NCBI GenBank assembly: GCA_902543245.1
Contig: CACBXQ010000006.1
Location: 1-64,000, forward strand
DNA from: an uncultured Pelagibacteraceae bacterium
GTDB taxonomy: Bacteria > Pseudomonadota > Alphaproteobacteria > Pelagibacterales > Pelagibacteraceae
Length of the DNA stretch: 64,000 nucleotides
Reading direction: 5' to 3'
Below, in pieces: positions 1-12,782 of this stretch. Within the stretch, counting starts at the first letter, position 1. Every line of letters starts with the position of its first letter. Both the position numbers and the translations under genes were made by a program. The notes under the pieces were generated by a model. The model ran no database searches, was not told the DNA's origin, and saw only the letters and a program-made list of their open reading frames with translations.

Positions 1-366
1 AATTTCTATATCTCTATTATGTCGAACTATATCTTGTTTTGCACTTTGTACTAATATCTTAGCATCATTGTTTGTAAGTTTTTTATTATCTCCTTTTTTT
101 GAGATTGACATTGTTAGGTTTAATGAATCAACGGAATCTATTAAAATATTTGCATTTTCAATATATTCATTTATTTTTTTTTCTAAATCTAAAATTAAAA
201 ATTCTAAATTATCATTTAAATTATCTATATTTAAATTTTCTTTTTTTAAAGATAGATTATAATTTTTTTCAAATGATACCTGTTGATCATTTAAATTTTT
301 ACCAAAAGCTGCACCCCTAATTGTTGTTGATCCTAGATCAAAAAAAATATTATAATTTTTACTCAT
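1..366 (-). CDS. ftsA: Cell division protein FtsA, N-terminal 122 residues (runs off the window)
   Basis: This is the start of the actin-like protein that tethers the division ring to the membrane. The ATG at 366-364 overlaps the last 8 bases of ftsQ, the usual ftsQ-ftsA coupling. The visible residues begin with an actin-fold phosphate-1 loop (FFDLGSTTIRGAAF, about residues 8-21). An SHS2-like segment follows (LNLTMSISKKG, then a helix ending in AKQDIVRHNRDIEI). The reading frame is open to base 1, so the rest lies to the left. Oddly, a C-terminal FtsA fragment lies on the opposite strand at 1832-2344, so this gene takes part in an inverted rearrangement or chimeric join. Identification rests on gene order and domain pattern, because FtsA sequence is poorly conserved. 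Confidence 0.85.
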   Translation of the reverse strand, partial: MSKNYNIFFDLGSTTIRGAAFGKNLNDQQVSFEKNYNLSLKKENLNIDNLNDNLEFLILDLEKKINEYIENANILIDSVDSLNLTMSISKKGDNKKLTNNDAKILVQSAKQDIVRHNRDIEI

Positions 367-1057
367 TAGAAGTAATAATATAGTTTCTAATCCTCATATC
401 TAATAAATTAAATTTATTTATTTTTTCATCGTTAATCATAATATGAGCTCTGTTAATAGCTTCTTTAATATCCTGTTCAGGTAATTTAATAACTAATCCA
501 CTTTTAGTTTTCAAATCCCACCTCCCGATTTGAAAATAGTAAAAAGATGCTATATCTTTAAAATCAAATTTTGTTTCATCAATTATTTTTTTCAACTGAA
601 TAAATTTTTTATAATTACCGTTAGTAAAAACTAAAGGGAGATCAAGATCATTAAATGATGTATTTTCTAAGCTTATTAACTTATTATTTTCTCCAATTAT
701 ATATTTTTTATTTTCTAAATATGTGAAAGCTAAAAAATTTGTTCTTTTTAATTTTAGTTTAATAGTATTTGGATAAGATTTTCTAATTTCATAAGAGCCA
801 ATTATGCTGAATTGTTCTAAAATATTTTTTAATTCTTTCTTATTTAAAGTAAAAATATTTCTATCTTTAAATATTCTTAATTTTTGTTGAATAATATTAT
901 TTTTTTTAGATGAAAGACCTACTACGTTTATATTTTTTATTTTAAATGAGATAAAGTTGTAAGAATTATTAATCTTGAAGTTAATGGTAGTTAAAAATAA
1001 AAAAATAATAAGGTAAAAAAAAAGTTTTCTCTTATTATCTATTAATTGACGCATCAT
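359..1057 (-). CDS. ftsQ: Cell division protein FtsQ
   Basis: A 232-residue bitopic membrane protein of the divisome that links FtsB/FtsL to the septal machinery. It has a short basic cytoplasmic tail, one membrane helix at about residues 11-27 (LFFYLIIFLFLTTINF), a POTRA domain at about 36-110, and a beta-rich FtsQ domain with GRWDLKTKSGLVIKLP at about 177-192. The length is somewhat below the 250-300 residues usual in alphaproteobacteria. Its first 23 bases overlap the end of ddl and its stop overlaps the ftsA start, so the three are translated as one operon (ddl-ftsQ-ftsA). The family diverges quickly, so context carries much of the assignment. Confidence 0.88.
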   Translation of the reverse strand: MMRQLIDNKRKLFFYLIIFLFLTTINFKINNSYNFISFKIKNINVVGLSSKKNNIIQQKLRIFKDRNIFTLNKKELKNILEQFSIIGSYEIRKSYPNTIKLKLKRTNFLAFTYLENKKYIIGENNKLISLENTSFNDLDLPLVFTNGNYKKFIQLKKIIDETKFDFKDIASFYYFQIGRWDLKTKSGLVIKLPEQDIKEAINRAHIMINDEKINKFNLLDMRIRNYIITSNE

Positions 1058-1868
1058 TAATTATCCATTGAAGCAAGCTCATAAAACTGATTCCTTTATA
1101 TGCTGCAATTTCAGGAACTAAAGATAATTTAGTCATTCCTGGTTGAGTGTTTATTTCTAATAAGTAAAATTTACCACTAATATATTTAAAATCAGATCTA
1201 GTAACACCCCTACATCCTATAAGCTTATGAGCTTTTAATGCCAAATTAAGAACTTCATTAATTTTTTTTTTACTTAAATCTACTGGGATAATATGCTTTG
1301 TGCCTGCCTTGACGTTATACTTTGCTTTATAATCATAAAATTTTCTCTTCGGTGATAACTCGATCACACCAAGTTTTTTATTTCCCATTATTGCAACTTG
1401 AATCTCTCTTCCGCCAATATACTTTTCCACTAAAACTTCTTTATACGATGATAATTTTTTCAAGTTTTTAATAATATTTTTTTTATTACAAATATTAACA
1501 TCAACACTTGACCCTTCATCAACTGGTTTAATAACAACTGGAAATCCAAGTTTTATCTCAATATTTTTTAAAAGTGTATTTTTATTTTTTATAAGATCAA
1601 AACTATTCAATTTAAGAAATTTGGGAGTTCTAATATTGTTTCGAATAAAAATTCTTTTCGAAATTTCTTTATCCATTGCGATTGAAGATGAATTGACGCC
1701 CGAGTGAGTATATTTTATTTTTAAATTTTCTAGTAATGCTTGTATATATCCATCTTCACCAAATCTTCCATGAAGAGAATTATATACTACATCTGGTTTA
1801 AATTTTTTAATTTTACTTATAAATTCTGAGTCCGGTTGGTGGTAATCATATAACAAAAGACATATCAA
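1035..1868 (-). CDS. ddl: D-alanine--D-alanine ligase, 5'-truncated at an inversion junction
   Basis: The enzyme joins two D-alanines for peptidoglycan precursors in the cytoplasm. Recognisable ATP-grasp family segments are VVYNSLHGRFGEDG near the N-terminus, the AMDKEISKRIF helix, LVEKYIGGREIQVAIMGN, and the metal and substrate site LLEINTQPGMTKLSLVP. The N-terminal signature of Ddl (a GGxSxEREVSLxSG loop) is missing, about 30 residues. Homology starts near base 1832. The few residues before it (from a TTG at 1868) come from the reverse strand of an ftsA fragment that starts there. The frame has no better start before a stop at 1902-1904. As drawn the enzyme would lack part of its substrate-binding domain. 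I infer an artefactual or genuine inversion join, not a short Ddl. Confidence 0.85.
   Translation of the reverse strand: MICLLLYDYHQPDSEFISKIKKFKPDVVYNSLHGRFGEDGYIQALLENLKIKYTHSGVNSSSIAMDKEISKRIFIRNNIRTPKFLKLNSFDLIKNKNTLLKNIEIKLGFPVVIKPVDEGSSVDVNICNKKNIIKNLKKLSSYKEVLVEKYIGGREIQVAIMGNKKLGVIELSPKRKFYDYKAKYNVKAGTKHIIPVDLSKKKINEVLNLALKAHKLIGCRGVTRSDFKYISGKFYLLEINTQPGMTKLSLVPEIAAYKGISFMSLLQWIINDASINR
1826..1840. other. Inverted junction between ddl (minus) and ftsA (plus)
   Basis: To the left of about base 1832 the minus strand encodes Ddl up to its DSEFISKIKK segment. To the right the plus strand encodes FtsA from its PVGGNHITKDI motif, with no gap. Both genes lose their 5' portions at the same point. 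Normally ddl-ftsQ-ftsA-lpxC all point the same way, so one side has been flipped and about 90 FtsA codons are absent between the two pieces. The exact base cannot be fixed without a relative to align. Confidence 0.8.
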
Positions 1869-2344
1869 AAATTTTAAAACTTTCTTACGAAGAGTCAGAA
1901 ATTATTAAAAAAGGATTTAACGATAAAGATTTATTTTCTGAAAATTTGAGTATTCAGAAAGAACTTTTAAGCAATCTTAATCAAAATAATCTTACCCATC
2001 AGGAATTTTCTACAATTATTAAAGAAATTATTTTTGCAAGAAGTGATGAGATTTTGAGCATGAGTACTAATGTTGTTAATGATGTATTGACAAATAAAAT
2101 TGATGAAAAATACAAAATAATTTTAATAGGTTCAGGATCGAGAATATTTGAAAGTAATTCTATAAGCATTACAAAAAATCCAAATTTATTAGATGAATTT
2201 GATTATTTGACAGAAACATCCGAAACTATATGCAAGAGTGGTGAAAATTTGCTTTTACAGGGAAATTCTCAAGAGGTTATTATAGTTCCTAAACAAAATG
2301 AAAAATCAGGCTTTTTTGTTAGATTTTTTAACCTTTTTAAATAA
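1832..2344 (+). CDS. ftsA: FtsA C-terminal fragment (5'-truncated)
   Basis: The open frame from base 1832 encodes 170 residues matching the last part of FtsA. It starts with the subdomain 2 motif PVGGNHITKDISKIL, followed by a region rich in helices, an actin-fold phosphate-2-like strand KIILIGSGSRI, and a C-terminal amphipathic helix SGFFVRFFNLFK that would be the membrane-targeting sequence. An ATG-like start is absent upstream, and the first usable codon (TTG at 1946) lies far inside the domain, so this is a fragment. It is followed after 67 bases by lpxC, as expected if it is the true 3' end of the division cluster. The missing middle of FtsA is not present in the window. Confidence 0.8.
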   Translation, partial: PVGGNHITKDISKILKLSYEESEIIKKGFNDKDLFSENLSIQKELLSNLNQNNLTHQEFSTIIKEIIFARSDEILSMSTNVVNDVLTNKIDEKYKIILIGSGSRIFESNSISITKNPNLLDEFDYLTETSETICKSGENLLLQGNSQEVIIVPKQNEKSGFFVRFFNLFK

Positions 2345-2411
2345 ATCTTCGTATTTTCTTGTAACATTAGTTGTCTTTTGAAGCTTAAATTAACAAAATA
2401 TAAAGTATTCG

Positions 2412-3332
2412 ATGTCAGTTTTAAATCAAAAAACAATTAGAAATGAAATAAGCTTTAAAGGCATAGGTCTTCACTCAGGTAAAAAAGTTAACTTAAAATT
2501 GTTACCTGCCAAACCTAACTCGGGTATTGTTTTTAAGAGAACTGACTTAAAAAATCAAAATATTATACTTCCTGGAATTTACAACGTATCAAATGCAACT
2601 TTATGTACTACAATTTCCAATGAGTATGGAAATTCTGTCATGACAATTGAACATTTGATGGCAGCTATTTTTGGAAAAGGAGTCGACAATTTATTGATTG
2701 AAATAGACTCCGTTGAAGTTCCAATTTTAGATGGGTCGGCTAGAGAATTTGTAAAAGGAATTGATCACACAGGTTTAGAAATTAGTGATACTCCAATAAA
2801 GATTATAAAAATTGAAAAAAAAGTTTCAATTAAAGAAGGTGATAAATTTGTTTCAATAGAACCTAATAATTTAAGTCTTGATATAGATTTTGAAATAAAT
2901 TTTAATAATCCTATTATATCAAAACAAAGGAAAAAAATTAAGATATACGAGAATGATTTATCTGAGATTTATGAATCAAGAACTTTTTGCTTATTTGAAG
3001 ATATTGAAAAATTAAAGAAAATGAATTTTGCATTGGGAGGTAGTTTGGACAATGCAATTGTTGTTAAAGGTAACGAAATATTAAATAAAAATGGATTAAG
3101 AAATAAATATGAATTTGTAAATCATAAAATCTTGGATTGCATGGGAGACTTATATCTTTCAGGATATAAAATGTTAGCAAAAGTGGTATGTTCTCAAGGT
3201 GGACACCAAATGACAAATAAATTGATGAGAAAAACTTTTGAAGATAGAAAAAACTTTTCATTATTTGAAATTAAAGAAAAAAACGTCCCACATTCATTTA
3301 TTTCAAGAAATCAACTTAAATCAATAGCTTAA
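2412..3332 (+). CDS. lpxC: UDP-3-O-acyl-N-acetylglucosamine deacetylase (LpxC)
   Basis: This zinc enzyme catalyses the committed step of lipid A synthesis in the cytoplasm. At 306 residues it is full length. The catalytic and metal residues can be placed at their Escherichia coli-like positions: the TIEHLMAA motif gives E80 and H81, the NHKILDCMGDLYL motif gives H238, D242 and D246, and GGHQ gives H265. The IPI-type insert PILDGSAREF is also present. The ATG at 2412 starts a typical MSVLNQKTIRNEISFKGIGLH N-terminus. The gene sits between the ftsA fragment and bamD, the standard alphaproteobacterial setting except that ftsZ, which usually comes between ftsA and lpxC, is not here. Confidence 0.97.
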   Translation: MSVLNQKTIRNEISFKGIGLHSGKKVNLKLLPAKPNSGIVFKRTDLKNQNIILPGIYNVSNATLCTTISNEYGNSVMTIEHLMAAIFGKGVDNLLIEIDSVEVPILDGSAREFVKGIDHTGLEISDTPIKIIKIEKKVSIKEGDKFVSIEPNNLSLDIDFEINFNNPIISKQRKKIKIYENDLSEIYESRTFCLFEDIEKLKKMNFALGGSLDNAIVVKGNEILNKNGLRNKYEFVNHKILDCMGDLYLSGYKMLAKVVCSQGGHQMTNKLMRKTFEDRKNFSLFEIKEKNVPHSFISRNQLKSIA

Positions 3333-3372
3333 GTAATAGAGTTTTTCATTATTTCTGTTAAAAACTTATTTA

Positions 3373-4212
3373 ATGAAATTCGTAAATATTTTAATTATAT
3401 TTTGTCTTTTATCTTTTTTGTCTTGTGCAAAAAAAGAGGAAAAGGTTGAAGTTATTATTGATGATGTAATTGAAACTCAAATGCTCGAGTCTTATAAAAA
3501 AGGGTTGAAAGCTCTCGAGGAGGGAGATGCATTGTATGCAGCAAGGCACTTTACAGATGCTGAGTTATTATTTCCACAATCAGAATGGGCACCAAAATCA
3601 TTATTAATGGCCGCTTACTCATATTACAGTCAAGATTATTTTGCAGATGCGATTGATGAACTTGAAAGATTCATTAAGACTTATCCTCAAAGTAATAGAT
3701 TAGATTATGCTTATTTTCTTTTAGCTACTTGTTATTATGAAAAAATTATAGATGAAAAGAAAGATTTGAAGCCATTATTTAAAGCAAAAGAAACTTTTAA
3801 ATTTGTTATTCAAGAGTACCCAAACACTGATTTTGCTTTAGATGCTAAATTTAAATTAAATTTAATAGATGAAACCTTAGCTGGCAAAGAGATGTATATT
3901 GGTAGGTATTATATAAAAAAAGAAAAATGGATTGCCGCAATCAATAGATTCAAGTATGTGGTAGATAATTACAATTCAACAATTTACATAGAGGAAGCTC
4001 TTCATAGATTAGTTGAACTTCATTATAAAATTGGTCTTATAGAAGAGTCTAAAAAATACGCAGCAGTTTTAGGATACAATTATCAATCTGGAGATTGGTA
4101 TGAAGTTTCTTATCAAATATTTAATAAAGAATTTGACCCAAAAGACAATAGTATAAAACCAAAAAAAGGTAATTTCATTTTTAAAAAATTCAAAAATTTA
4201 TTTGAAAACTAA
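3373..4212 (+). CDS. bamD: Outer membrane assembly lipoprotein BamD
   Basis: An essential lipoprotein of the BAM complex that inserts beta-barrel proteins into the outer membrane. It has a lipoprotein signal peptide ending in LLSFLSC with the lipidated cysteine at residue 18. About five TPR-like helical repeats follow, for example DAIDELERFIKTYPQS and AAINRFKYVVDNYNS. Its 279 residues fit the family. Its stop overlaps the ligA start by one base (TAATG). In many alphaproteobacteria recN sits between bamD and ligA; it does not here. Confidence 0.93.
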   Translation: MKFVNILIIFCLLSFLSCAKKEEKVEVIIDDVIETQMLESYKKGLKALEEGDALYAARHFTDAELLFPQSEWAPKSLLMAAYSYYSQDYFADAIDELERFIKTYPQSNRLDYAYFLLATCYYEKIIDEKKDLKPLFKAKETFKFVIQEYPNTDFALDAKFKLNLIDETLAGKEMYIGRYYIKKEKWIAAINRFKYVVDNYNSTIYIEEALHRLVELHYKIGLIEESKKYAAVLGYNYQSGDWYEVSYQIFNKEFDPKDNSIKPKKGNFIFKKFKNLFEN

Positions 4213-6230
4213 TGAAGAATGAAAATTTAAAAAAAAAATATCAAGAAAAAATAAAATTATTGGTCAAATATAATAAATATTATTACGAAAATAATTCTCC
4301 ACTAATTGATGACAATGAATATGATAGTTTAAAAATTGAAATACTTGATTTAGAAAAAAAAAATTCGTTTTTAAAAAGTAAGGATTCTCCCTCAAAAACT
4401 GTAGGTTTCAAACCTTCAAAAAATTTTGCAAAGATTAATCATAAAGTTCCAATGTTATCTTTATCTAATGCATTTGATAAAAATGACTTAGAAAATTTTC
4501 AAAAAAAAATAATAAATTTTTTAAATTTTAAAAATGAAAACCAATTATTTGAATATAGTACAGAGCCAAAAATAGATGGAATATCTGCATCATTATTGTA
4601 TAAAAATGGTAAATTTGTGAAAGGATTATCTAGAGGTGATGGTAAAACTGGTGAAGATATAACTAAAAATTTATTTACAATAAAAGATATTCCAAAAGTT
4701 ATTGAAGATAATAATTTTCCCAAAGAGATAGACATAAGAGGAGAGGTATTTATAGAAAAGAATGATTTTAAACTATTAAGAGAAAAATTTGCAAATCCAA
4801 GGAATGCTGCATCAGGTTCTTTAAGGCAAAAAAACCCAGAAGAAACTAAAAAAATTCCATTAAGATTTATAGCTTATACTTATGGCTATTCAGAAAAAAT
4901 GAGAATTAAAACCCAAACAGAATTTTTGAAATATTTAAATACATGGGGCTTTAAAACTAATAAGTTTAATAAAAAAATTACAGGAATTGAAAATCTGATT
5001 AAAAATCATCAATATTTAGAGCAAAAAAGAAATGAAATTGATTTCGATATTGATGGTGTTGTTTACAAAATAGATGATTTTAAATTGCAAGAAAGATTAG
5101 GTTTTGTCGCTAATGCGCCTAGATGGGCTATAGCGCATAAATTTTCAGCTAATAGCTCAATTTCTATAATTAAAAATATTGAAATCCAAATTGGCAGAAC
5201 TGGAGCACTAACTCCTGTGGCTAAAATAAATCCAGTTAATATTGGTGGTGTAATGGTATCTAATGCAACATTACATAATGAAGATGAAATTAATAGAAAA
5301 GATATTAGAGTTGGAGATACTGTAGTTGTTGAGAGAGCGGGGGACGTGATACCACATGTCATATCTGTAGATAAAAAAAAGAGAAAAGCTGATTCAAAAA
5401 AATATATTTTTCCTGAAAAATGTCCGTGTGGGTTCAAGGTTATTAAGGATTATAACAAAATAACTAAAAAATTTGATGCAGTCAAGAGATGTCCAGATAG
5501 AGGTTTTGAATGTGAAAAAATGGCAAAAGAAAAAATTAAACATTTTGTATCTAAAGATGCATTAAATATTGATGGTCTTGGAAAAAAAGTAGTTGAGAAT
5601 TTTTGGAGTCTTAATTTAATAAGACTTCCTCAGGATTTATTTAAATTAGATTTTAATAAAATTGAAAATCTAGAGGGCTGGGGTAAACAATCTGCACTTA
5701 ATCTTAAATATTCTATTAACAAGTCCAAAGAAATTTCATTAGAAAAATTAATATATTCATTAGGTATAAGACATATAGGGCAAGAGAATGCAAAATTAAT
5801 TTCACAAAATATTCAAACTTTAGATAATTTATGTAAAATTTCCGACAAATATAATTTTAATACTTTTTTGAACATAGATGGTATTGGAGAAACACAAATA
5901 AATTCACTTAAAAAATTCTTTTCTAATAATATAAATTTGGAAATAATTAAAGAATTAAAAAAATTTATTATAATAAAAAAATCAAACTTGAAGATAACTG
6001 GAAAACTTAAAAATAAAACTTTTATTTTTACTGGAAAACTAGATACAATGAGTAGAGCTGAAGCAAAATCATTAATAGAAAAAAATTCTGGGAAAATTTT
6101 AAGTAATGTGAATAAAAAACTAGATTATTTAATTATTGGTGAAAAACCTACTACCAAAAAAGTTCTAAAAGCAAAAGAATTAAATATTAAAGTAATTAGC
6201 CAAGCAGAGTTTCTGAAATTATTAAATTAA
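4212..6230 (+). CDS. ligA: NAD-dependent DNA ligase LigA
   Basis: Seals nicks in replication and repair using NAD. The order of parts is normal: Ia domain with NNSPLIDDNEYDSL (about residues 27-40), adenylation site EPKIDGISASL with the catalytic lysine K120, nucleotidyltransferase motifs (RNAASGSLRQ; DIDGVVYKI), OB fold, zinc finger, helix-hairpin-helix repeats (LGIRHIGQENA; IDGIGETQI) and a C-terminal BRCT domain (about 595-672). The zinc finger is unusual: its cysteines are C404, C406, C427 and C434 (C-x1-C-x20-C-x6-C), whereas E. coli has C-x2-C-x14-C-x5-C. The gene follows bamD with a one-base overlap and ends convergently, overlapping pepP by 9 bases. Confidence 0.97.
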   Translation: MKNENLKKKYQEKIKLLVKYNKYYYENNSPLIDDNEYDSLKIEILDLEKKNSFLKSKDSPSKTVGFKPSKNFAKINHKVPMLSLSNAFDKNDLENFQKKIINFLNFKNENQLFEYSTEPKIDGISASLLYKNGKFVKGLSRGDGKTGEDITKNLFTIKDIPKVIEDNNFPKEIDIRGEVFIEKNDFKLLREKFANPRNAASGSLRQKNPEETKKIPLRFIAYTYGYSEKMRIKTQTEFLKYLNTWGFKTNKFNKKITGIENLIKNHQYLEQKRNEIDFDIDGVVYKIDDFKLQERLGFVANAPRWAIAHKFSANSSISIIKNIEIQIGRTGALTPVAKINPVNIGGVMVSNATLHNEDEINRKDIRVGDTVVVERAGDVIPHVISVDKKKRKADSKKYIFPEKCPCGFKVIKDYNKITKKFDAVKRCPDRGFECEKMAKEKIKHFVSKDALNIDGLGKKVVENFWSLNLIRLPQDLFKLDFNKIENLEGWGKQSALNLKYSINKSKEISLEKLIYSLGIRHIGQENAKLISQNIQTLDNLCKISDKYNFNTFLNIDGIGETQINSLKKFFSNNINLEIIKELKKFIIIKKSNLKITGKLKNKTFIFTGKLDTMSRAEAKSLIEKNSGKILSNVNKKLDYLIIGEKPTTKKVLKAKELNIKVISQAEFLKLLN

Positions 6231-7916
6231 TTTTGCTAGCCACTTTCTTTCAGATTCATTAAGATACTTTGAAAGTTTAGAATAAACATTTAAATGATAA
6301 AAGAATATATAATCTTTTTCACTCTTATTTAACAACTTGAAGTTTATTAGTTCTTTCTCTAATGGTGCAAGCGTTAAATTTTCAAAAAATATTTTGTTAT
6401 TAATTTTTTTTACAAAAACTAAATTTTCAATTCTCATCCCGTATTTACCTTCCTTGTAGAATCCGGGTTCATTACTTAATATCATACCTTCTCTGATTTT
6501 AACTGAATTAAACCTAGAGATTGCCTGTGGTCCCTCGTGAACGTTAAGGAAAAAACCAACTCCATGCCCAGTTCCATGACTGTAGTCTAAACCAGACTCT
6601 TTCAGGCTTTTCCTCGCCAAAACATCTATTTTGCTCCCATTGGTATACTTTTTTAAGTCTGCAGATGCTACTGCAATATGACCTTTTAAAACTTTGGTAT
6701 ATATATTTTTAATATTACTACTTTGTTTGCCAAAACATAATGTTCTAGTTACATCAGTTGTTCCGTATTTATATTGACCACCTGAATCACAAAGGAATAA
6801 GTCTTGTTTATTTATTGATCTATCAGATTTTTTTGTAGCACGATAATGAACTATTGCACCATTTGGACCTGATCCAGCTATTGTATTAAAGCTTGGATAT
6901 ATATATTCTTTATTTAAAGATCTAAATTTTTCTAGTTTTTTTTCAGCTCTAATTTCTGTAATTTTTTTTTTATTTTCGTTTTTCATCCAATATATAAATT
7001 TTGTTAAAGCTACACCATCTAGAATATGAGATTTAATCATACCCTGAATTTCTGTTTTATTCTTTATCGATTTTAATTCATAGATTGGATCTATTTCACT
7101 TATTATATTGAATTTTGTTTTTATAATGTTTTCAAAAAAAATTGAGCAACTTAAGTTATCAATTATAATATTTCCATGATCAAGTTTATATAAAATTTCA
7201 TTTAATTTTTTCGCATGAAAAACCTGATTAGCTGTTAATTTTCCACTTTTTACAATTTTTTTGGCTTTTCCCTGTTCAGCAAAAAAATAAATTTTTTTTC
7301 TATTGGTTAATAACATTCTACAATTGGGGATTGGGCTGTTTGGATTATCAAATCCACGGATATTTAATATCCATGCTATATTTTCTGGCGCAGTTATAAA
7401 TAAGTATTTTGTTTTTTTCGAATTAAGTATTTTGCATAATCTATTTATTTTTGAATTATGGGTCTCTCCAGTTATTTTATTTTCTAGATTAAAAAAAGGT
7501 TTATTTTTTTCTCTTGTAATCTTATTTACAATTAAATCATTTTCAATGTGCTTAAATTTAATATTATTACCAAAATAGATATTTAGAATTTTTTTAGTAA
7601 ATAGCTTTGGGTTAATTCCTAATGTTAATTTTTTTTTATAAACGTTTTTTGGAAAGAATTTTGGTGTTTCATAGATATGAAAATTTTTTCCTGATTGTTT
7701 TTTTGCTTGCAAAGTATATCTTCCATCAACAAAGAGATGATTTTTTTTCTTAAGTATGACCGCAAACCCAGCAGATCCAGAAAATTCTGATATTATTTTA
7801 AGTCTATCAGTTTTAGCATATTCTCCAAAGTAATCGTCGTTTTTTGGAATTATATAACCATCAATATTAAATTTTGAGAATTTTTTTCTAAGTAGTTTAA
7901 TTCTATTTTTAATCAT
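6222..7916 (-). CDS. pepP: Xaa-Pro aminopeptidase (M24B family, PepP-like)
   Basis: A cytoplasmic metallopeptidase that removes N-terminal residues preceding proline. A creatinase-type N-terminal domain, a second degenerate copy, and a catalytic pita-bread domain can be followed. The metal ligands are visible as DSGGQYKYGTTDVTRT (two Asp), the His in SHGTGHGVG, the Glu in ILSNEPGFY and the Glu in MRIENLVFV. I chose the ATG at 7916 because it overlaps the uvrD stop as ATGA, the usual coupling in this genome. A start 27 bases upstream (7943) is also open and would add nine basic residues. The three-domain length (about 564) fits the eukaryote-like aminopeptidase P type common in alphaproteobacteria. 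Confidence 0.93.
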   Translation of the reverse strand: MIKNRIKLLRKKFSKFNIDGYIIPKNDDYFGEYAKTDRLKIISEFSGSAGFAVILKKKNHLFVDGRYTLQAKKQSGKNFHIYETPKFFPKNVYKKKLTLGINPKLFTKKILNIYFGNNIKFKHIENDLIVNKITREKNKPFFNLENKITGETHNSKINRLCKILNSKKTKYLFITAPENIAWILNIRGFDNPNSPIPNCRMLLTNRKKIYFFAEQGKAKKIVKSGKLTANQVFHAKKLNEILYKLDHGNIIIDNLSCSIFFENIIKTKFNIISEIDPIYELKSIKNKTEIQGMIKSHILDGVALTKFIYWMKNENKKKITEIRAEKKLEKFRSLNKEYIYPSFNTIAGSGPNGAIVHYRATKKSDRSINKQDLFLCDSGGQYKYGTTDVTRTLCFGKQSSNIKNIYTKVLKGHIAVASADLKKYTNGSKIDVLARKSLKESGLDYSHGTGHGVGFFLNVHEGPQAISRFNSVKIREGMILSNEPGFYKEGKYGMRIENLVFVKKINNKIFFENLTLAPLEKELINFKLLNKSEKDYIFFYHLNVYSKLSKYLNESERKWLAKLI

Positions 7917-9940
7917 TTTAATTTTTTTTGATACCTTATCCACCCTGGGCTTCTTATCTCTTGATTATCATCGTAATCAATATCTTGATTGAAATCAAAA
8001 TCTGTATCTTGGTCGTTATGATAAAAATCATTTTTCTTAAGAAATTTTTCTGGCAACTCCTCTATAAATCTAGATGATAAACTGTCTATCCAGTCACCTT
8101 GATAAAATCTATTCATAGCAAAAGAAATATGAGCTAATTTTTTACCTCTTGTAATTCCTACATATGCCAATCTTCTCTCTTCCTCTAAACCATTTTGACC
8201 TTTTTCCTCAATTGATTTTTGATGAGGAAACAACCCTTCCTCCCATCCAGGTAAAAAGATGACATCAAATTCTAAACCTTTAGAGGCATGCATTGTCATT
8301 AAATTAACTTTTTGACCTTTCCAATCTTGATCAATAGACGTTGCTAACGCTACATGTTCTAAAAAACTTTCTAGATTATCAAATTCTTTCATTGCACTTA
8401 TTAATTCTTTAATATTTTCTAGTCTATTCTCATTTTCTAAGTCTTTTTTATTTTTTAACATTCGACTATAGCCAGACTCATCCAAAATAGTTTGCAAAAG
8501 TTTGATATGGTTTTTTTTATCAATATTATCTCTTCTCCATTTTTCAATTAAATTTAGTATTGAACTTAGACCAATTTTTGTCTTAGGTTTAATCATATTC
8601 ATTTCTATTAATTTTCTGGATGATTTTTCCATACTTAGAGAATTTTTTTTAGCAAAATCATTTATTTGTTTAATTGTAGTGTCACCAATTGATCTTTTTG
8701 GAACATTAACAATTCTTTCAAATGCAAGATCATCATTTTCTTGAAACACAACTTTTAAATAAGATATACAGTCTTTTATCTCAGCTCTTTCGTAAAATTT
8801 TATACCACCTATAATCCTATAAGGTAGCCCTATTTTTAAAAACCTTTCTTCAAATTCTCTCGTTTGAAAAATTGCCCTTACTAAAATTGAAATATTATTT
8901 AAGTTATATTTTTTTTTTAATTTTTCAATTTGATCTGAAATTCCAATTGCCTCATCTTTACCATTTCTATAACAATTCAATATTACTGGCTCACCTTCAG
9001 AACCAGAAGTAAAAAGCGTCTTTCCAACTCTATTTTTGTTATTTTCAATTAATTTGGAAGCTACAGATAGTATATTTTGAGTAGATCTATAATTTTCCTC
9101 TAGTCTGATTATTTTTGTATTATTATAATTTTGATCAAATTCTAAAAAATTTTTGATTTCAGCTCCTCGCCAACTATAAATCGACTGATCATCATCACCT
9201 ACACAACAAAGATTATTATGATATTTAGATAATGCATTTAACCATCTACTTTGAATATGATTTGTATCCTGATATTCATCAACTAAAATATACTTAAAAT
9301 TCTGCGCATATATATTGGCTATGTCTGGATTATTTTCAAAAATCTTTACACAATGCAGTATTAAGTCTCCGAAATCACATACATTTAAATCTATTAATTT
9401 TGATTGATAGATTTTGTAAATATTTAGAAATCCTTTTTCAAATATATCACCTTTTTTTAATATTACGTCAGATGGATACCATCCTTTATTTTTCCACTTA
9501 TCTATTACAGATAAAATAAAATTAGGTGAAATTTTTTTTACATCTACATTTTCAGCTTTACAAATATTTTTAATTAGTCTTGATTGATCATCTTGATCAA
9601 TAATTGTAAAATTGGAATTCAAATTAGCTGCCTTTGCATGTCTTCTAAGTAATTTTGCTGATATTGAGTGAAATGTTCCAACCCAAGATAAGTCAATCGC
9701 GTCTTTTTTCAGTATGTCATTAACTCTTCTTAGCATTTCACTAGCAGCCTTATTTGTAAAAGTAACGGCTAGAATTTGGTTAGGAAACGCAAGCCTTTGT
9801 TTAATAATATGTGCTATTTTAGACGTAATAACTCTTGTTTTCCCAGAGCCAGCACCAGCAACGATTAGCAATGGTCCGTTGAGATAACAAACCGCTTCTT
9901 TTTGTGTATCGTTTAAGTTATTTAAGTATTCAAATTTCAT
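7913..9940 (-). CDS. uvrD: ATP-dependent DNA helicase UvrD/PcrA
   Basis: A superfamily 1A 3'-5' helicase for nucleotide excision and mismatch repair. The motifs appear in order: Q motif LNDTQKEAV, Walker A GAGSGKT with K34, motif Ia AVTFTNKAASEM, Walker B VDEYQDTN, motif III DDDQSIYSWRGA, motif IV with RLEENYRST, motif V LMTMHASKGLEFDVIFLPG and motif VI EERRLAYVGITR. At 675 residues it is a little short, lacking most of the C-terminal RNA polymerase-binding tail, although GWIRYQKKLK at the end retains the GxIRYxKK-like core. It is the first gene of a uvrD-pepP pair and is divergent from the AsmA-like gene across 39 bases. Confidence 0.96.
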   Translation of the reverse strand: MKFEYLNNLNDTQKEAVCYLNGPLLIVAGAGSGKTRVITSKIAHIIKQRLAFPNQILAVTFTNKAASEMLRRVNDILKKDAIDLSWVGTFHSISAKLLRRHAKAANLNSNFTIIDQDDQSRLIKNICKAENVDVKKISPNFILSVIDKWKNKGWYPSDVILKKGDIFEKGFLNIYKIYQSKLIDLNVCDFGDLILHCVKIFENNPDIANIYAQNFKYILVDEYQDTNHIQSRWLNALSKYHNNLCCVGDDDQSIYSWRGAEIKNFLEFDQNYNNTKIIRLEENYRSTQNILSVASKLIENNKNRVGKTLFTSGSEGEPVILNCYRNGKDEAIGISDQIEKLKKKYNLNNISILVRAIFQTREFEERFLKIGLPYRIIGGIKFYERAEIKDCISYLKVVFQENDDLAFERIVNVPKRSIGDTTIKQINDFAKKNSLSMEKSSRKLIEMNMIKPKTKIGLSSILNLIEKWRRDNIDKKNHIKLLQTILDESGYSRMLKNKKDLENENRLENIKELISAMKEFDNLESFLEHVALATSIDQDWKGQKVNLMTMHASKGLEFDVIFLPGWEEGLFPHQKSIEEKGQNGLEEERRLAYVGITRGKKLAHISFAMNRFYQGDWIDSLSSRFIEELPEKFLKKNDFYHNDQDTDFDFNQDIDYDDNQEIRSPGWIRYQKKLK

Positions 9941-9979
9941 AATTTATTAATTAATAATATATAAACCATTATACTAATA

Positions 9980-11401
9980 ATGATAAAAAATTTAAAAAAA
10001 GCTCTTAACAAAACCAATAAATTCATAATAGCATTTCTTGTAATTATTTTTTCATTTCTTTCGTATCTATCAATACCAGCTTTATATGAATATGATAGTT
10101 TACAAAAGGAATTATCAAAAAAAACCTTAGAAGAATTTAATCTAAATTTATCACTTTCAAATGAGATAAAATACCATATTTTTCCATCACCAAATTTTAC
10201 TATAACTGACAATTTGCTTAGTTTTGATGAAAATAAAATTGAAAAATTCGGCGAGCTTAAAAGAGTCAAAATTTTTATATCAATACAAAATTTATTTTTA
10301 CAAAAAAAGTTAAAAATAAGAGAAGTTAAATTTTATGATTCTAATTTTACAGTAAATAAACAAAATTTCGAATATTTTAATCAATTTTTAAAAACAAAAA
10401 ATTCTAATAATATTGAAATTATTAATTCAAAAGTTTTTTTTAAAAATAATGAAAATAACGAAACACTTGCTATTGCAACTATAATTAATGGAAAAATTAA
10501 ATTTGATCAAAATAGAAATCAAAAAATATTTACCTCAAATGGTTTTATTTTTAATACAAATTATGATTTAGAATTAGAACAGAATTTAGAAAACCTTAAA
10601 TTAAAAAATCTAATTCTGAATTTTAAGGACATAAATCTAAAAATTAAAAATTCATTGTCACTAATGAGTGATGAAAAAATTAGTGGTCTAACTGATATTG
10701 ATTTCTTTAGAGAAAAAGTTAATTTTAAATATGATTTTCAGGATAGTAAAGTAACTTTCGAAACAAAAAAAAATAGTAATTTAAAACTTTCTGGGAGTAT
10801 AAACCAATCCCCATTTTACTTTGATATTAAAATGTCTTTTAGAAATGCAAATTTTCAGTCTGTAATAGCTATTATTAATAAATTAAAAAACTATTTAAAT
10901 AATGATTATTTATTAAATAAAAACTTCAATGGAAAACTTTTGATAAATTTTGATAAAATTCATAGTTCAAAATATTTAGATCATATGGAAATATCAGCTT
11001 CATTTATCAATGGAAAAATTAGTTTGAACGATAGTAAGATCCATTTAGAAAAATTAGGAGATGTTCATTTAGATTATTTTAATATTGTAAATAAAAAAAA
11101 TAAAATTTTGGTTGAAACTAAAAATACATTTAGAGTTTCTAATTTAGCACAGTTTAACAGAATAATTCAATTACCGAAAAATAAAAAAAAAAACATCGAA
11201 ACTATTTATTTCGAAATTGATAAAGTTTTATCAACTGAGAATTTCTTCATTAAAAAACTCATTCTTAATAAGGATGTTGATAAATCCAAGTTTGAAAAAA
11301 TAGATATATCAAAGAATATCCAATCAAAAAATATCAATAATGTAAATAATTGGTTTGATCTAAAATCTTTGGTAAGAGAATTATTGACAGGAATTAATTA
11401 G
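9980..11401 (+). CDS. AsmA-like envelope protein
   Basis: A 473-residue protein with a basic N-terminus, one membrane helix at about residues 15-33 ([20 protein letters not shown]), then a long Asn/Lys/Phe-rich region of alternating beta strands. The start after the helix ([38 protein letters not shown]) resembles the AsmA family pattern in which a membrane anchor is followed by a short helix and a beta strand rich in Phe and Pro. AsmA-like proteins span the periplasm and are thought to move phospholipids. The family assignment is from this architecture, not from strong motifs. The gene converges on fumC with an 8-base overlap. Confidence 0.6.
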
Positions 11402-12782
11402 GCCTTGTCATTTTTATAGGATCAATTAGTTTTTCATAATCTTTTTTTGATATAAGTCTAGATTTTAAAGCCTCATGTTTCAAAGTTGTATTATTTTTTA
11501 ATGCAGTTTTCGCAATTTTAGCAGCGTTATCATATCCTATCTTGGGAGTTAGTGCAGTCACTAACATCAATGAATTATCTAGTAGCTCTTTAATTTTCTT
11601 TTTATCAGCTTTAATTCCTTCAACACAAAAATTTGAAAAATTTTTTATGCTGTCAGATAATAAATTTATAGATTGTAAAATATTATGTATAATTAGAGGT
11701 TTAAATACATTTAATTCAAAATGACCATGGGAACCTGCTATGGTAATACCATTATGATTACCTATAACTTTGACACATACCATAGTTAACGCTTCACACT
11801 GTGTAGGATTTACTTTTCCAGGCATAATTGAAGATCCAGGTTCATTTTCAGGTAGTATTAATTCTCCATATCCTGCTCTTGGCCCTGATCCAAGAAATCT
11901 AATATCGTTTGCAATTTTCATTAAGCTCACAGCAGATGTATTTAATGCTCCAGAAAAATTTACAATAGCATCATGTGCCGCTAATGCTGCAAATTTATTT
12001 TTCGTAGGTTTAAAGGGCAATTTTGTAATTTTTTTTATTTCGTTAACAATTTTTTTATCAAAATTTTTTCTGGTATTTATTCCAGTTCCAACTGCAGTTC
12101 CACCTTGAGCTAGATAATAAATCTCATTTAACGAATATTTAATTCTATAAATAGACTCTTGAACTTGTGCTTGGTAACCAGAAAATTCCTGTCCCAATGA
12201 AAGAGGGGTAGCATCTTGTAAATGTGTTCTTCCTATTTTTATTATTTTACTAAATTCCTTTACTTTTTTTTTGAGAGATTTGTTTAGTAAATATAATGAT
12301 GGTAATAGTTTATTTTTCGTTTTTAATGCTATTGCTATATGCATGGCTGTTGGAAACACATCATTAGTAGACTGAGATTTATTTACATGATCATTTGGAT
12401 GAACAGGCTTTTTTGACCCTTTTTTTCCTCCCATGATCTCAATTGCTCTATTAGCAATTACTTCATTTACATTCATATTTGTCTGAGTTCCAGAACCTGT
12501 TTGCCATACTTTAAGAGGGAAATTATCATCCAGTTTACCTTTAATAACTTCATCAGAGGCTTTTATAATTGATCTTGATATTTTTCTTTCTAAATCATGA
12601 TTTTTATAATTAGTTATTGCAGCAGCTTTTTTTACTATTGCTATTGACCGAATGAGTATTGGTCTTACATAAAATTCACCTATATCGAAGTATTTTTTTG
12701 ATCTTTCTGTTGATGCTCCCCAATATTTATTATTAGGGACATTAATTGAACCTATGCTGTCAAATTCTTTTCTTTTTTTCAT
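11394..12782 (-). CDS. fumC: Class II fumarate hydratase
   Basis: Interconverts fumarate and malate in the TCA cycle; an iron-independent tetramer. Conserved segments are [55 protein letters not shown] with the active-site histidine, and the superfamily signature [15 protein letters not shown] carrying the catalytic serine loop. At 462 residues it is full length, and the [25 protein letters not shown] start is typical. It is transcribed alone, divergent from the MazG-like gene across 66 bases and convergent with the AsmA-like gene. Confidence 0.97.

Follow-up and report, generated by a model that had tools for sequence, protein, structure and literature searches.

This SAR11 contig opens with scrambled division genes, which almost certainly reflect an artefact of DNA amplification and not a real rearrangement. 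Compared with the close relative L053, the start of the window (the whole stretch of 64,000 nucleotides that was analysed) consists of two inverted pieces of an L053-type gene cluster, joined at 1832-1837. Very probably, the first 1.83 kb is an inverted chimera that arose during in-vitro amplification, most likely phi29 MDA of a single SAR11 cell.

Gene order at the contig start

The window opens at the first base of contig C6 (87,163 bases, ~87 kb), a physical contig end with no sequence to its left. The genes that follow it are listed below.

1-366, minus strand: ftsA 5' fragment encoding FtsA residues 1-122; open frame, 77% identity to L053 FtsA 1-122, cut by the contig end
359-1057, minus strand: ftsQ, complete, 232 aa; 72% identity to L053 FtsQ, Pfam POTRA_1 and FtsQ_DivIB_C
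~1035-1837, minus strand: ddl (D-Ala-D-Ala ligase) without its first ~38-39 codons; 92% identity to L053 Ddl
1832-1837, no strand: putative chimeric junction, CCGGTT, fitting both native templates; microhomology of 6 nt at most, the switch lying somewhere within these bases
1832-2344, plus strand: ftsA 3' fragment, 170 aa, FtsA residues 228-397 (L053 numbering); 77-78% identity to L053
2412-3332, plus strand: presumed lpxC, the neighbour downstream of ftsA in relatives; 90% identity to the L053 gene
3373-6230, plus strand: presumed bamD-like and ligA genes in the relatives' order; from open frames, the relatives' loci and the L053 alignment

The names lpxC, bamD and ligA, together with murG, murC and murB used below, are presumptive; some of them were also given by an earlier sequence-only reading. 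That reading had placed FtsA residues 1-122 on 366-1 of the minus strand and the FtsA C-terminus on 1832-2344 of the plus strand, with ftsQ and ddl between them on the minus strand. Both coordinates and strands were confirmed: ftsQ is complete (1057-359), and the plus-strand FtsA piece opens with PVGGNHITKDI at 1832 and reaches its stop at 2344. The ddl gene is indeed truncated at its 5' end where the FtsA fragment starts, but the loss had been put too low at about 30 residues; homology to L053 Ddl begins at E39/P40, which leaves ~38-39 residues missing. In the truncated Ddl, Pfam Dala_Dala_lig_C is matched nearly in full and Dala_Dala_lig_N over its last part only. The FtsA C-terminal piece matched Pfam FtsA (E 7e-5) and NCBIfam TIGR01174 (E 8e-9), in each case below the curated cut-off, and the N-terminal piece (1-122) matched neither model. 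No ftsZ lies between ftsA and lpxC in the window (2344-2412) or in L053 (5819-5886); the genome's own FtsZ_C match is on contig C2.

Native order in relatives and the search for second copies

The closest public locus found, in a search that may leave out records of the window's own genome or of genomes very near it, is L053 (contig CABYUS010000024.1, isolate AG-333-N06), whose Ddl is 92% identical over 253 residues. Its genes run in one direction throughout, in the order murG-murC-murB-ddl-ftsQ-ftsA-lpxC-bamD-ligA. Here murC through bamD are intact, with an ftsA of 397 aa; murG is cut by the contig end and ligA by the end of the fetched stretch. Window 11-1837 aligns to L053 4981-3155 on the minus strand (82.9% identity), and window 1836-5477 to L053 5311-8954 on the plus strand (84.7% identity). 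Chance is excluded for both alignments because their E values were printed as 0.0. Each gene piece in window 1-5477 matches the normal SAR11 cluster, as represented by L053, at 83-85% DNA identity. Unlike that cluster, the window has its ddl-ftsQ-ftsA(1-122) part reversed and is without ddl codons 1-38, ftsA codons 123-227 and the upstream mur genes: neither L053 4992-5306, which encodes FtsA residues 123-227, nor anything upstream of L053 3155 has a counterpart in the window's first pieces. The breakpoints at L053 3155 and 5311 are 2.16 kb apart, a distance read from the relative, as the strain's own native order was not seen.

Relatives do not share the inversion in the loci searched. None of 17 loci (0/17), chosen from 46 relatives with a strong Ddl match and compared with 7 window-derived genes or pieces, holds an inverted gene; all window genes found there run one way, with ddl before lpxC. 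The same result was obtained with 12 query pieces in 80 public SAR11 loci (0/80; 750,135 bases), after matches of <28% identity and LigA matches with E >1e-20 had been dropped. These 80 loci were selected for a well-matching ddl, not every one of them holds every gene (ftsQ and lpxC are both present in 64), and the test detects only inversions of these genes. The two sets overlap, at least 5 of the 17 loci appearing also among the 80. The claim that ddl-ftsQ-ftsA-lpxC normally lie in one direction is borne out by the intact L053 cluster and by both sets. Isolate names beginning AG- or AH-, which we take to be single-cell names, stand on 72 of the 80 loci. A mean of 1.5 misassemblies per 100 kb is given for the SCGC single-cell workflow in PMC11247762. 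Read simply, this rate would predict about eleven events in 750 kb, more than the 80 loci show, with no inversion of these genes among them; this counts against the amplification reading.

The window's own assembly comprises 996,595 bases in 24 contigs and is 80.35% complete. A DNA search of it with window 1-2411 returned the window itself and two AT-rich matches of 40-58 bases, and nothing else. The Ddl N-domain model gave one match in the assembly, the truncated gene, and no second FtsA was found in it, L053 FtsA matching the two broken pieces only. Two candidate copies were rejected. A C11 match of the Ddl query is 28% identical, lies in a 446-aa frame and was read as not Ddl; an extra Pfam FtsA match on C1 falls in a 344-aa frame, presumably MreB, judging from its sequence and an MreC-like neighbour. 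MurB and MurC queries had no match in the assembly, an empty result that would not by itself show absence. Queries from L053 for MurC, MurB, MurG, the Ddl start and the FtsA middle recovered themselves in L053 and gave nothing convincing in 40 contig-end stretches; these cover the ends of all 24 contigs, the window's own excepted. The best rows there were MurC at E 0.036 (27% over 49 residues) and the Ddl start at E 0.46, with no row for MurB, MurG or the FtsA middle. At E 1e-8, no inverted or overlapping repeats were found among these stretches or between them and window 1-12000; that no other contig end shares an inverted repeat also counts against the amplification reading. At this place murB, murC and parts of ddl and ftsA seem to have dropped out of the assembly.

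Origin of the join

The identity to the two native templates, taken from L053, changes over at the join. To the ddl template it is 23/30 directly left of the join and 6/30 directly right; to the ftsA template it is 11/30 on the left and 26/30 on the right. Bases 1832-1837 are six that either template could supply. Against L053 itself, 5/6 match on the ddl side and 4/6 on the ftsA side, the strain's own native bases being lost, and the true overlap may be shorter than 6 nt. In this sequence, random inverted joins would have an overlap of at least 2 bases in 21% of cases and of at least 6 bases in 0.4%. At least one side of the join would need the codon CCG, which makes up 2 of the 73 Pro codons counted in 7 neighbouring genes. 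Because it is so rare, it is doubtful that both native templates matched in all 6 nt, and we do not lean on the microhomology. Inverted repeats in window 1-3400 were considered as the basis of a repeat-mediated inversion and rejected; the 25 listed of 60 are AT-rich and 71-89% complementary, and in no case does an arm cover 1832-1837. Comparing the window with its own minus strand at 1e-6 gave no match either.

We infer that a strand switch during amplification made the join. In the ddl-ftsQ-ftsA-lpxC region, the 3' end of a strand under synthesis would have been displaced, would have paired again, by a few complementary bases, with the opposite strand ~2.16 kb off, and would then have been extended the other way. 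The outcome would be ddl codon 39/40 joined head to head with ftsA codon 228. Since neither true flank was recovered (the murC-murB-ddl start on one side, the ftsA middle on the other), such a molecule could have ended up as the contig end. An MDA chimera is favoured by the inverted join, the ~2 kb between the segments, the contig end and the adjoining unrecovered stretch. The segments stand in opposite orientation, their spacing in L053 is <10 kb, and the arrangement is absent from the relatives' loci, as would be expected of such a chimera. The genome would accordingly be a single-cell amplified genome, with which its number of contigs, its completeness and its shortest contig of 2,044 bases are compatible.

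Joins of this kind are described in the literature. Lasken & Stockwell 2007 (PMC1855051) found 85% of 475 MDA chimeras to be inverted, the segments of an inverted chimera tending to come from within <10 kb of each other; at such distances (<10 kb), 93.5% of the inverted junctions had complementary bases. ChimeraMiner 2019 (PMC6515389) reports that on average 91% of single-end chimeras are inverted. The present join resembles these inverted chimeras in its nearby segments (<10 kb), their inversion, the missing intervening sequence and a join with at most a few shared bases. It differs in that it stands in an assembled contig and not in raw reads. For single-cell MDA product, Woyke et al. (PMC2668756) put the frequency at one chimera per 13-27 kb. 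The single-cell pipeline of PMC5519541 retains contigs >2,000 bp, and the shortest contig here agrees with a 2-kb floor of that kind.

An assembler misjoin, in which software put two correct but separate pieces together in the wrong orientation, would yield the identical inverted order, and the join does lie near a contig end beside missing sequence. Assemblers that work with k-mers require overlaps longer than ~6 nt, however, and the two sides share at most about that much, judged on L053. No inverted-repeat arm, among those listed, spans the join. Since the native templates diverge right outside 1832-1837 (on L053) and the junction holds no N bases, a chimeric molecule is favoured over a misjoin, for which we see a slim chance. 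A chimera of library preparation, by ligation or PCR instead of MDA, would also give a join without long homology. Its chance is slighter still: random ligation would not prefer an inverted partner 2.16 kb away, and the joined piece reached the contig and was therefore probably common among the reads.

A real inversion in the living cell that breaks both ddl and ftsA, while the unrecovered part of the genome supplies intact copies, finds room in an assembly that is 80% complete. The two genes are essential in well-studied bacteria, and such an inversion requires second copies of both, whereas the assembly yielded none. After a simple inversion, moreover, the other breakpoint should hold the lost ddl start and ftsA middle, but the searches recovered neither. 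Both breakpoints present and no sequence lost, the picture expected of a genuine inversion, is not what was found in the 80%-complete assembly, and the arrangement was seen in 0/17 and 0/80 relatives' loci (sets that partly overlap). We consider this explanation barely credible. We likewise give next to no credence to a SAR11 strain in which part of the division and cell-wall cluster is truly duplicated in inverted orientation, with intact working copies in that fifth of the genome which was not recovered. The amplification chimera thus remains our preferred explanation. The sequence-only reading had proposed an artefact of this sort (an amplification-type inverted chimera or a misassembly), and the relatives' order, the failure to find second copies in the assembly and the inverted, short-range join support it. 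The alignment to close SAR11 genomes that it had suggested gives two inverted pieces of the collinear L053 cluster. Intact ddl and ftsA elsewhere in the assembly and the same arrangement in relatives were both sought, and neither was found.

Shortened FtsA in SAR11 and the reading of the broken genes

The 64 of the 80 loci that hold both flanking genes, ftsQ and lpxC, fall into two groups by the open reading frame between them. It is 368-398 aa long in 16 loci and shorter in 48 (47 at 220-244 aa and one at 145 aa). In an alignment of 63 sequences, which left out the 145-aa form, the largest gap in all 47 short forms is one block of ~163 residues, from L053 residues 195/196 to 357/358. An SHS2-like region is retained in the short forms, as is a C-terminal helix of the GFFEKFF type in the rows seen. 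One example is L054:6416-7120 (235 aa), for comparison with the long form L053:4626-5816. An AlphaFold2 model of the L054 short form, built from alignment A1 (42 rows, 36 short and 6 long forms), has a mean pLDDT of 87.7. Its best Foldseek matches are FtsA structures (4a2a, E 4e-10), and VIA-align superposes it on 3wt0 (Z 14.6, 206 aligned, rmsd 4.0) and 1e4g (Z 12.6, 203 aligned, rmsd 3.2). The L054 short form is thus predicted to fold like part of FtsA. The lost block presumably corresponds to FtsA subdomains 2A and 2B, with the SHS2 subdomain and the membrane helix kept. Subdomains 2A and 2B carry part of the ATP site and the FtsZ-tail site. Of 41 genomes, 34 gave an FtsZ_C match, the present one among them. 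The present genome has the long form of FtsA, in two pieces. At L037 ~7935-8459, from the single-contig relative G012, an FtsA-like frame of 175 aa has a stop just upstream, and the short FtsA there may be decaying further or be frameshifted. No literature on a shortened SAR11 FtsA was found, judged by titles and the openings of abstracts. The shortened FtsA is more interesting than the chimera and merits a study of its own.

Were the join at the contig start real, a streamlined bacterium would be duplicating division genes that are essential, and nothing here supports that. The case is a warning rather than a discovery. Annotation should treat the broken ddl and ftsA of this contig end neither as pseudogenes nor as a division cluster that was rearranged, and they are not to be read as biology.
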